Source of the DNA: Nanobdellati archaeon
Lineage (GTDB): Archaea; B1Sed10-29; JAGVWA01
DNA length: 64,000 bases
Direction of reading: 5' to 3'
Assembly: GCA_018304505.1 (NCBI GenBank)
Contig: JAGVWA010000001.1
Location: forward strand, 62,001-126,000
Shown: piece by piece, positions 1,601 through 56,338 of the stretch
Layout: each line of letters starts with the position of its first letter
How positions within the stretch are numbered: the stretch's first letter is position 1
Translations under genes and position numbers: made by a program
The notes under the pieces: generated by a model
The model's database searches: none
What the model was told of the DNA's origin: nothing
What the model saw: only the letters and a program-made list of their open reading frames with translations

Positions 1601-1987
1601 CTACTTCTTTCGCTTTGCCTGCTTCTTCGCCCTTGTGGCTTTCTTTGCTGCGGGTTTTCTATTTGCGGCTTTCTTTTTAGCTGCTGGCTTTGCCTTTGCT
1701 GCTTTTTTGACGTTCCTCGCTGACGTTCGGACTTGCTTCTGCATTGCCGTGAGTTCTTTTATCGATGTCGAAAGAACACTGTTGACCTTTATGTCGATTT
1801 TCTTTGCCTCTGCAGTCGTGTCTTTTATCAGCTTTGTTGCCAGCCTTTTGCCTTCCTTTTTGTCAAAGAAGCCTTCCTCTACAAGGAAGTCTGTATAGTC
1901 CTTGAAGAGATCCCTAGCGATTTCCACCATGCCCATGGGTATGAGGATTGCTTTTTTTGCTGCGCTTGTCGATTTTTTTGCTGCCAT
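1601..1987 (-). CDS. Phasin-like small protein with Lys/Ala-rich tail
   Basis: 128 aa. Residues about 15-90 are predicted helical and contain DFLVEEGFFDKKEGKRL, the kind of pattern seen in phasin/PHA-granule-associated proteins. Residues 95-128 are almost entirely Lys, Ala, Arg and Pro, like a histone H1 or PhaF tail, which suggests nucleic-acid or polyanion binding. The start is set by GGTGATT upstream of the ATG and a TATA box at 2039-2046. It is first in an operon with the UbiB-like gene. The phasin label rests on weak resemblance; only the helical body and basic tail are directly visible. Confidence 0.6.
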   Translation of the reverse strand: MAAKKSTSAAKKAILIPMGMVEIARDLFKDYTDFLVEEGFFDKKEGKRLATKLIKDTTAEAKKIDIKVNSVLSTSIKELTAMQKQVRTSARNVKKAAKAKPAAKKKAANRKPAAKKATRAKKQAKRKK

Positions 1988-53649: not shown

Positions 53650-54438
53650 TTATCCTCCTAAAGACATGACATGAAACTCGCAAAATGTGCTGCCTGTGCC
53701 CCAGCACTTTGTCTCATTAACACTAATGGCTTCTGAGTTTTTAAACTTAACAAATGCCCCCCTCAAAAAGCCACGTATGTAATTGCACACGGCCCTGTTA
53801 ACGTAGGGCATGCCAGCTGCAAATGCAGACTCATGGATTCGCAGCACTGCGTCCTTGGCGATTTTTTGGTCGCCCTCAATTTTTTCCAGGATGCCGATGC
53901 CCTCTTCTTTGAATCTCTTTGCGACAACATCAATTAATTCATCCTTGCTATCTGGTTTAATTGATGACACAAATTCCCTCGCCTTCAATTCCCCAGCCTG
54001 CGATGCTACGCGCTCTGCCTGAAAGTCACCGGCGATATCATAAAGCGCTAAGTGCAGATTTCGCAAAACTGACACGTCGACGCTCGATTTCGTGGTCTTT
54101 CTTACAGATACATCTACATCAACGATATCCCCTTGCGACCCGAGGGACAGCACTTCCTTGGTGTCAAATTTTAGCCCCAGGGTTCTCTTGATGTCCTCAA
54201 TCGCCGTAACCAAATCGACAGCAGCGCTAGCAATCTTTTCCTTCAGGTAATCAAAGCCCTGCCCTTCAACAAAGGCAGTGATCTTGCCATCGGAAAAAAA
54301 GAAGATTCTCACTTCATCAGAACGCCGCTCCAGGACAGTTTTTTCCTCGTCAGCATAATCTAGATAATCAAGCTTTGACAGCTTGCCTAAGTCAAGCTGA
54401 TGCTTTAAATCATAGACCATCGCTTCTGATTTCAACAT
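53650..54438 (-). CDS. V4R-domain protein
   Basis: 262 aa from the ATG at 54438. The C-terminal half (KDAVLRIHESAFAAGMPYVN, YIRGFLRGAFVKFKN, ETKCWGTGSTFCEFHVM) is a V4R (vinyl-4-reductase) small-molecule-binding domain, with two Cys in place. The N-terminal half has no clear family. It lies 67 nt after the KaiC-like ATPase gene on the same strand. Confidence 0.82.
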   Translation of the reverse strand: MLKSEAMVYDLKHQLDLGKLSKLDYLDYADEEKTVLERRSDEVRIFFFSDGKITAFVEGQGFDYLKEKIASAAVDLVTAIEDIKRTLGLKFDTKEVLSLGSQGDIVDVDVSVRKTTKSSVDVSVLRNLHLALYDIAGDFQAERVASQAGELKAREFVSSIKPDSKDELIDVVAKRFKEEGIGILEKIEGDQKIAKDAVLRIHESAFAAGMPYVNRAVCNYIRGFLRGAFVKFKNSEAISVNETKCWGTGSTFCEFHVMSLGG

Positions 54439-54505
54439 ACTCACCTTTTGATACACGCACACCTTTTGCTACAACCACACTCGCAACAGCCATTAACAGC
54501 ACGCG

Positions 54506-55207
54506 CTACAAGAGCTCTTCTTGCAGAAGCACTATGCCTTCTGGCGTTATGTGGAATGGATAAATGTTCTTGCTGTGATCAGTGCCGCGCATTTTCAAGA
54601 TCTCCAGGGCCCTGATGCGCTCGTTCTTCCGGGTAAAGTTGTACAGCACAATGACCCCGTCGGTAATAAACTCCTCAAGGCCGAACTCAATGCCGCCACG
54701 CTCCGAAAACGACCGCTCTGCAATTAATAAGGTTGTCACGTCCTGCTGCCCAAGGAACTCGAGCATGTTGAAAAGCCCGACCCTGAACTCGGTTTCGTTT
54801 TTGAAACACATGTGCATCAGGGACAGCGGGTCGATAACGATCCGCTTGACATTCTGTTGTAGTATCGTTGACTGCATCATATCCATCAGATTCTGGAAGT
54901 TGAACTTCTCCATTTTCAAGATGAACAAATCCTGGTTTTCAACAAGCTCCTTGAGATTCCAGCCAAAAGCCTGCCCCGTATCCTGGATTAAGCGCTCTGG
55001 CGTCTCTTCAAGGCTCAGGTAAGCGCCTTTTTGACCATGCTTTATAAAACCATTGTACAGGTACTGCATTCCAAACATGGTTTTTCCAGAGCCCGGGCCG
55101 CCCATCACGAGCACGTTGTGTTTCCTAGGTAAGCCCCCATTGAGCATTTCGTCAAGCCCTTCGATACCCGTCAAAACTTTTTCAAGCGCCTTCACCATAC
55201 TTGACAT
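54506..55207 (-). CDS. KaiC-like RecA-fold ATPase
   Basis: 233 aa with one KaiC domain. TGIEGLDEMLNGGLPRKHNV, Walker A GGPGSGKT (36-43), AYLSLEETPERL and Walker B RIVIDPLSLM are intact. Such single-domain archaeal KaiC proteins often act in signalling with sensor partners such as the adjacent V4R protein. Confidence 0.9.
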   Translation of the reverse strand: MSSMVKALEKVLTGIEGLDEMLNGGLPRKHNVLVMGGPGSGKTMFGMQYLYNGFIKHGQKGAYLSLEETPERLIQDTGQAFGWNLKELVENQDLFILKMEKFNFQNLMDMMQSTILQQNVKRIVIDPLSLMHMCFKNETEFRVGLFNMLEFLGQQDVTTLLIAERSFSERGGIEFGLEEFITDGVIVLYNFTRKNERIRALEILKMRGTDHSKNIYPFHITPEGIVLLQEELL

Positions 55208-55363
55208 AATGAACGCTTGATTAATAAAACCTACGCCATTGCCAAAAAATTTGGTCCAAAACCCCTGTTCATTTATAAAGCTTTATATATGAAGACGTTC
55301 AGAACCAATGTGGGGTTTATAAATACCCAGAACAGCCCTAATTTTCAACGAGGAGGTAAAAAA

Positions 55364-56338
55364 ATGGAGATTGATTTTAACATCGTGAACATCGTAGCAT
55401 CAGCCAATCTAGACTGCGAACTCGACCTTTACAGCATCGCGCGCGAAGTAGACAACGTGGAATACGAACCAGAACAATTCCCCGGTGCAATACTGAAACT
55501 AAAGTCACCGAAGACCAGCCTGCTTTTGTTCAAAAACGGCAAACTAATATGCACAGGCGCAAGAAGCGAAGAAGACGTAGGAAAGGCTGTAAATCGGACC
55601 TTCGAGAAAATCAAGCACTGCGTCCGGGGCAAGGTTGCAGATAAACCAGACATACCATTCGAAATCGTGAACATCGTAGCTGCAGCCAACCTTGAAAAGG
55701 AACTTGACCTTTACGGCATCGCGCGCGAAGTAGACAACGTGGAATATGAACCAGAACAATTCCCCGGTGCAATACTGAAACTAAAGAAACCGAAGACCAG
55801 CCTGCTTTTGTTCAAAAACGGCAAACTAATATGCACAGGCGCAAGAAGCGAAGAAGACGTAGGAAAAGCCCTGTCAGTAGCCGTGGAAGCCATAAAAGAC
55901 AACATCAAGGGCAAGGCCAAGGAGAAGCCCAAGGAGGAGCGCAAGCTGACCCAGGTCTCCAAGACCAAACAAGAGATCATAACACCAACAATCACCTTTG
56001 AAGGCAAGAAGAAACCCAAGAGGAAGGTTGTTGCCGCGCTAAAAGAAGCGGTGGCAAAACCAAAAGCAACGGCGGTAAAGCCAGTAGTAAGGGCAAAAGC
56101 CCCCAAGGCAAAACCAAAAGCAGTGGCAGCAGCAAAAACAAAAACAAAGGCACCGACAAAGAAACCAGCAATGAAGAAAAAAGCAGCCCCACGAAAAGCA
56201 AAGGCCACAAAGAAAGTGACGGCCAAAAAAACCCCCACGAAGAAAGCAGTAAAGAAAAAAACAGCAACATCAAGTGCAAAGAAAAAGCCACAGAAAAAGG
56301 GGGCACTTTCACGGCTGTTAAAAGCGGTCCGCGGCTGA
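55364..56338 (+). CDS. tbp: TATA-box-binding protein with Lys/Ala-rich tail
   Basis: 324 aa from the ATG at 55364 (GAGGAGG upstream); ordinary TBP has about 180. Residues 1-182 form the two-lobed saddle with half-repeats (FNIVNIVASANLDCELDL, FEIVNIVAAANLEKELDL; both with EYEPEQFPGAILKLK). Residues about 190-324 are Lys, Ala, Pro and Thr only, like histone H1 or the HC1 tail. The tail should bind DNA non-specifically. The two half-repeats are almost identical also at DNA level. Confidence 0.93.
   Translation: MEIDFNIVNIVASANLDCELDLYSIAREVDNVEYEPEQFPGAILKLKSPKTSLLLFKNGKLICTGARSEEDVGKAVNRTFEKIKHCVRGKVADKPDIPFEIVNIVAAANLEKELDLYGIAREVDNVEYEPEQFPGAILKLKKPKTSLLLFKNGKLICTGARSEEDVGKALSVAVEAIKDNIKGKAKEKPKEERKLTQVSKTKQEIITPTITFEGKKKPKRKVVAALKEAVAKPKATAVKPVVRAKAPKAKPKAVAAAKTKTKAPTKKPAMKKKAAPRKAKATKKVTAKKTPTKKAVKKKTATSSAKKKPQKKGALSRLLKAVRG

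Follow-up and report, generated by a model that had tools for sequence, protein, structure and literature searches.

Among factors that arose by duplication of one half, the general transcription initiation factor TBP is the textbook example, and the reason for its asymmetry is an old question. Canonical archaeal TBPs (PF00352), represented by structures from Sulfolobus (1mp9), Pyrococcus (1ais and 1pcz), and M. jannaschii (2z8u), fold as a two-lobe saddle. From known TBP structures, we take the strand-1 Asn, the stirrup Phe, and the Phe of the LxF motif to be contacts with the DNA minor groove, and the stirrup motif YEPEQFPG to be the contact with TFB. Some TBPs carry extensions beyond this core: Thermococcales TBPs have acidic C-terminal tails, and eukaryotic TBPs have a variable N-terminal extension. 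Single-lobe archaeal TBP-domain proteins are already known as well, and are mentioned in passing in PMC7221094, which cites Brindefalk et al. 2013. On the side of bacterial proteins with basic tails, DNA binding by mycobacterial HupB is stabilised in vivo by a histone H1-like tail (PMC5676037), and actinobacterial TopA owes its processivity to Lys repeats (PMC7398561). The literature that we searched, with incomplete coverage, included no paper on a lineage whose only TBPs are single-lobe, on conversion between TBP lobes, or on an H1-like TBP tail.

Here we analyse a TBP with two symmetric lobes and an H1-like tail, a variant on a known kind. It is encoded in a 64,000-nucleotide stretch of the genome of a Nanobdellati archaeon (hereafter, the window; positions are counted from its first base unless a contig is named). 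The genome (G000) comprises 917 kb in 21 contigs and is 92.8% complete. Our preferred explanation holds that the protein is the genome's general TBP, and that its two-lobe form would derive from a single-lobe TBP gene that was duplicated in tandem and fused, from homogenisation of the lobes by intragenic gene conversion, or from both. Taken as a whole, and including the role of the tail considered below, we give this explanation a probability of roughly two in three (0.66).

A two-lobe TBP core followed by a basic tail

The gene and its flanking signals all lie on the forward strand:

55282..55289, forward: TATA-box-like element TTTATATA 5' of the TBP gene, from sequence
55350..55357, forward: ribosome-binding site GAGGAGGT ahead of the ATG at 55364, from sequence
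55364..56338, forward: TBP gene, 324 residues, two TBP lobes and a basic tail, from the open reading frame, Pfam, PDB, and Foldseek
55913..56335, forward: H1-like Lys/Ala/Pro/Thr/Val tail of 141 residues, predicted to be disordered from composition and pLDDT
56306..56332, forward: short predicted terminal helix, residues 315-323 of GALSRLLKAVRG, a low-confidence AlphaFold helix

The open reading frame is intact from its ATG to the stop codon at 56336-56338. PF00352 matches the protein twice (E 4.8e-57), and no other Pfam family was found in it. Its sequence matches in the PDB include 1mp9 (E 1.5e-41) and 1ais. AlphaFold predicts a two-lobe saddle core (pLDDT ~97), for which the best Foldseek match was the Sulfolobus TBP 1mp9 (E 4.4e-21, TMt 0.84); 2z8u was matched with a TMt of 0.90. 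The core ends near residue 183, and the pLDDT of the tail is mostly under 60. The 141 tail residues include 45 K, 26 A, 15 T, 12 P, 11 V, 6 R, 6 E, and 0 D. Pfam finds TBP alone, and the globular (winged-helix) domain of H1 is absent; the protein is not a histone.

An earlier note, made from the letters of this DNA, had described the gene as a TBP fused to an H1-like tail. The continuous frame, the paired PF00352 matches, the confidently modelled core, and the disordered K/A/P/T tail bear this out, and a search for a stop or frameshift between core and tail found none. The same note had treated the core as that of an ordinary archaeal TBP, which is right for the fold and wrong for the lobes: these are near-identical, and the close relatives mostly have a single one.

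The strand-1 Asn, the stirrup Phe, and the LxF Phe are present in both lobes of the window TBP, and the corresponding Asn and two Phe positions per lobe form invariant columns, conserved in every lobe from the Diapherotrites and Micrarchaeota (D/M) and from the window's class. The YEPEQFPG motif likewise occurs in both window lobes. Its stirrup Glu is found in 20 of 21 single lobes of the class and in all 58 canonical C lobes, against 30 of 58 canonical N lobes. The window protein thus shares with canonical archaeal TBPs the saddle fold, the DNA-contact positions, and the stirrup motif, and its genome likewise has TATA-like boxes and a partner TFB, which contains two cyclin repeats (G000:C1:34161-34706). 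It differs from them in having near-identical lobes, the TFB-contact form on both stirrups, and the basic tail.

We would expect the core to bind and bend TATA DNA like any TBP. The element TTTATATA is the top enriched 8-mer in the intergenic upstream regions of the window's genome, at about 10 times the first-order Markov expectation; such enriched TATA-like motifs 5' of genes are consistent with TATA binding, bending, and transcription by the window TBP. Since both stirrups carry YEPEQFPG, TFB could dock at either end. Promoter direction would be set by the contact between TFB and the BRE, rather than by TBP asymmetry; a review describes this contact as the determinant of transcription direction in archaea (PMC7289017). 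In the single-lobe relatives, dimers would take this role.

The two lobes are near-identical over a sharply bounded tract

The lobes and the tracts that they share are located as follows:

55373..55618, forward: N-terminal TBP lobe, PF00352, residues 4-85 (G000:C3:117373-117618)
55658..55897, forward: C-terminal TBP lobe, PF00352 (G000:C3:117658-117897)
55436..55582, forward: near-identical tract of the N lobe, residues 25-73, from codon comparison and the 206-nt repeat
55718..55864, forward: matching tract of the C lobe, offset by 282 nt, from codon comparison and the 206-nt repeat

At the DNA level, the lobes form a 206-nt direct repeat with 93% identity. Their protein sequences are 84% identical over 82 columns, compared with a mean of ~48% between the lobes of canonical archaeal TBPs (n = 58). 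Within the tract, 47 of 49 codons are identical, and the flanks on either side differ at most codons. The longest identical run of DNA between the lobes measures 78 nt in the window, 98 nt in G005, a genome of the same class, and 77-89 nt at four loci of the Micrarchaeota type; in canonical TBPs, its median is 14 nt and its maximum 49 nt (n = 58). In G005, moreover, the identical DNA tract ends within a stretch of unchanged protein, beyond which only synonymous changes occur. The sharp edges of the tracts and the synonymous-only change in G005 point to gene conversion or a very recent duplication, rather than to selection at the protein level, and we read the tract in the window as the putative product of one of these two processes.

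Single-lobe TBPs prevail in the class

The window's class was represented by 19 genomes, with G000 as the only member of its family. In 21 of the 23 class TBPs that were examined in full, the window's included, there is one lobe. Nearly every intact class TBP frame encodes a single lobe of ~90 residues, often with two paralogous types per genome, and these single-lobe TBPs are accompanied by an ordinary two-repeat (two-cyclin) TFB. Two intact class TBPs depart from this in having two well-conserved lobes, that of the window and that of G005; two weak TBP matches also fall within one frame of G012. Both single-lobe and two-lobe TBPs occur outside the class, in the Micrarchaeota. The single-contig genome G206 encodes one TFB and just two TBPs, each of a single lobe, which lie 762 kb from each other; in G046, there is one TBP of this type.

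The window lobes are nearest to the single lobes of the class, and belong with these monopartite proteins (PMC7221094) to one lobe family; the window protein differs in linking two lobes in one chain. Rather than being accessory, the single-lobe form is the sole TBP found in most class genomes and in some Micrarchaeota. A class of single-lobe TBPs, freshly symmetric two-lobe relatives, and an ordinary TFB together make a natural test of TBP duplication. Dimers of one-lobe TBPs, the relation of TBP asymmetry to promoter direction, and the functional effect of the duplication all become testable.

Contig ends fall inside the TBP gene in G003 and G007. In G007, the contigs C36 and C7 (loci L048 and L057) end inside TBP with 121 identical bases, including ~20 nt upstream, and their flanks differ further upstream; this genome probably carries two near-identical TBP genes. 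G010, of the same class and 89% complete, has a TFB and zero TBP matches; its TBP either was lost in the assembly or has diverged strongly.

Origin of the two-lobe form

We built a tree of 82 lobes from alignments of only 82 columns. All D/M and class lobes split from the canonical N and C lobes (support 97/96). The two lobes of the window are sisters (98/84), nested with the single-lobe TBPs of the class (97/84). The nearest single lobe to them, L081 of G016, comes from another order, which may reflect poor resolution or transfer. Topology tests rejected one N/C duplication common to all two-lobe TBPs (AU p 1.5e-6). They also rejected a grouping of the window N lobe with canonical N lobes (AU p 0.0076), a result for which gene conversion is a possible confounder. 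A shared origin for the two-lobe TBPs of the window and G005 is compatible with the data (AU p 0.08), so that they may have one origin or two. The tests do not separate an origin of the D/M lobes from the canonical N lobe, from the C lobe, or from an ancestor that preceded their duplication.

A serious rival to our explanation is that an old two-lobe TBP underwent concerted evolution. In this history, the D/M group would descend from an ancestor with an ordinary two-lobe TBP, whose lobes were made interchangeable by intragenic conversion; many lineages would then have dropped one lobe and act as homodimers, and the window would retain the two-lobe state. It is supported by the sharp synonymous edges of the conversion tracts that occur in the window, in G005, and in several Micrarchaeota, by the alternation of two-lobe and single-lobe forms over the group, and by the canonical lobes of TBPs in other DPANN (Woesearchaeota, Nanohaloarchaeota, and Aenigmarchaeota). 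However, it has to accommodate the strong split between D/M plus class lobes and canonical ones, it requires conversion to have erased N/C identity over two phyla, and it sits poorly with the nesting of the window lobes among single lobes. We therefore hold it to be the less probable history, while giving it real weight: conversion itself can cluster lobes and could yield part of the signal in the lobe tree, so that re-duplication and concerted evolution are not cleanly separable.

A more radical and more doubtful reading is that the D/M lineage never underwent the canonical N/C duplication. Its single lobes would descend from a pre-duplication ancestor, and its two-lobe TBPs would be independent re-runs, the window's with a chromatin-type tail added. 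The trees are compatible with this, because all D/M lobes fall outside the canonical N and C group and the tests, as noted, do not tell an origin from N, C, or an earlier lobe apart. If true, the two-lobe TBPs of the D/M group would repeat the duplication that created TBP elsewhere.

Basic tails on TBPs and on other proteins of the genome

We scored a TBP as tailed if a 20-residue window outside the lobes contained at least 40% Lys plus Arg. The earlier note had held that archaeal TBPs normally end after the second lobe, and had proposed a check of relatives for similar tails. Its first point agrees with the absence of basic tails from all 58 canonical TBPs sampled. As to the second, tails are present among the relatives: 10 of 67 TBPs from the DPANN neighbourhood of the D/M group have a basic N- or C-terminal tail (Fisher p 0.0017 against the canonical set), 5 of 23 in the class and 5 of 44 elsewhere in the group. 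Most TBPs of the group are without one. The tail is N-terminal in G004, G012, and G013, and C-terminal in G014 and several Diapherotrites; because its position varies in this way, it was probably gained more than once. The exact form of the window tail is specific to its genome, the sole representative of its family in the comparison. Like the TBPs with extensions of other kinds, the window protein extends a TBP core, whereas the charge of those extensions is opposite or their composition different. Two single-lobe TBPs, L060 of G012 and L055 of G013, have N-terminal Lys-rich tails of ~130 and ~70 residues, mirroring the C-terminal tail of the window.

Within the window's genome, C-terminal basic tails were found in only 4 of ~1,120 open reading frames: those of TBP, the chromatin protein MC1, a type IA topoisomerase, and a further protein in the window:

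1601..1987, reverse: 128-residue protein with a similar basic C-terminal tail, from the proteome survey

The tail of this protein, noted before, is real, and the label "phasin-like" found no support in Pfam, where no family matched over the cut-off. That basic tails are a general habit of the proteome was rejected on the count of 4 in ~1,120.

MC1 (PF05854, E 1.2e-26; G000:C15:14213-14617) ends in an H1-like basic tail. Its DNA-binding fold differs from that of TBP, and only the tail is comparable. In the order, a basic tail ends the MC1 of the members that could be read: G000, G001, G003, and G005. Four genomes (G000, G001, G003, and G004) have MC1 and yielded no canonical histone match, although this absence is provisional because the genomes are incomplete; in the window's genome, the search for a canonical histone gave just a weak partial match, to model positions 3-43. 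Conversely, histones are present and MC1 absent in G002, G006, and G007, and G005 has both. A single-sequence query for Alba found no match in the window's genome.

A candidate DNA-affinity module

We find the tail best read as a generic DNA-affinity module common to TBP and the local chromatin protein MC1, a reading drawn from sequence and analogy. That similar tails recur among the group's TBPs and, within the window's genome, on MC1 and topoisomerase I fits a role in chromatin or DNA affinity. HupB (PMC5676037) and actinobacterial topoisomerase I (PMC7398561) are alike in bearing a Lys/Ala/Pro tail with PAKK/KAAK-like repeats on a DNA-binding core, and the likeness to the latter extends to the same kind of tail on the topoisomerase IA of the window's genome. 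Unlike these bacterial H1-type tails, that of the window sits on an archaeal general transcription initiation factor. Judging from its charge and from the HupB and TopA precedents, the disordered tail would add sequence-independent DNA affinity. It might lengthen the dwell time of TBP or help it compete on DNA coated by MC1, itself similarly tailed. The earlier note had also put forward, as a hypothesis, that a tail of this kind could link the start of transcription to the packing of chromatin. That TBP, MC1, and topoisomerase I all carry a basic tail in a genome with no recognisable histone suggests that, in archaea, chromatin affinity can be conferred by an H1-like tail as a transferable module.

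A rather unlikely alternative is that the tail has no specific role: slippage in a purine-rich 3' end would have produced it by low-complexity drift, and it would be tolerated because a DNA-binding protein takes no harm from added positive charge. The tail DNA is indeed repetitive (families D2-D4), the tails of relatives vary in length, end, and sequence, and most group TBPs do without one. The tail region has a second frame that is almost as open, so that the open frame is by itself weak evidence that the tail is real; its recurrence, on the TBPs of relatives and within this genome on MC1 and topoisomerase I, is stronger support. Against drift stand the rarity of such tails in the proteome, where three of the four tailed proteins bind DNA, the restriction of TBP tails to this group, and the retention of MC1 tails across the order. 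Still less probable is a role for the tail in binding RNA or as a general chaperone of nucleic acids. Tails rich in Lys and Ala can bind both RNA and DNA, and the 1601-1987 protein shares the tail and has no known DNA-binding domain; against this, DNA is the substrate of the three other tailed proteins in the genome.

Finally, an assembly or binning artefact, whether a spurious lobe duplication or the end of TBP fused to another gene, is very improbable: the assembly is fragmented and near-identical repeats seem to break those of relatives (as in G003 and G007), but the flanks and linker of the window lobes differ, assemblers tend to collapse repeats rather than expand them, the two-lobe pattern occurs independently in G005 and several Micrarchaeota, and tails are present in unrelated assemblies.

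Further observations in the genome

The type IA topoisomerase (G000:C21:8642-12466, L179) contains a LAGLIDADG intein with HTH-like segments and has its Lys/Ala/Pro tail at the end. The topoisomerase of G001 also appears to be interrupted by an insertion, at an identical point of the model (position 341). We rejected the topoisomerase tail as a class-wide trait, as the readable topoisomerase ends of relatives include no long tail.

A second TBP-like protein is encoded by a 719-residue open reading frame (G000:C8:9484-11640; L007:3485-5644, forward) with four diverged TBP lobes, and has no counterpart among class relatives. It is unlikely to be an alternative general TBP, given that the stirrup motif is lost or altered and no relative has the protein. 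The lobes are accompanied by a likely transmembrane helix (LNAFVLVVLLLALFSTALM) and a distal domain of ~250 residues, and the protein is likely membrane-anchored.

Divergent from the TBP gene, on the reverse strand of the window, lie genes for a KaiC-type ATPase and an adjoining V4R-domain protein (53650-55207).
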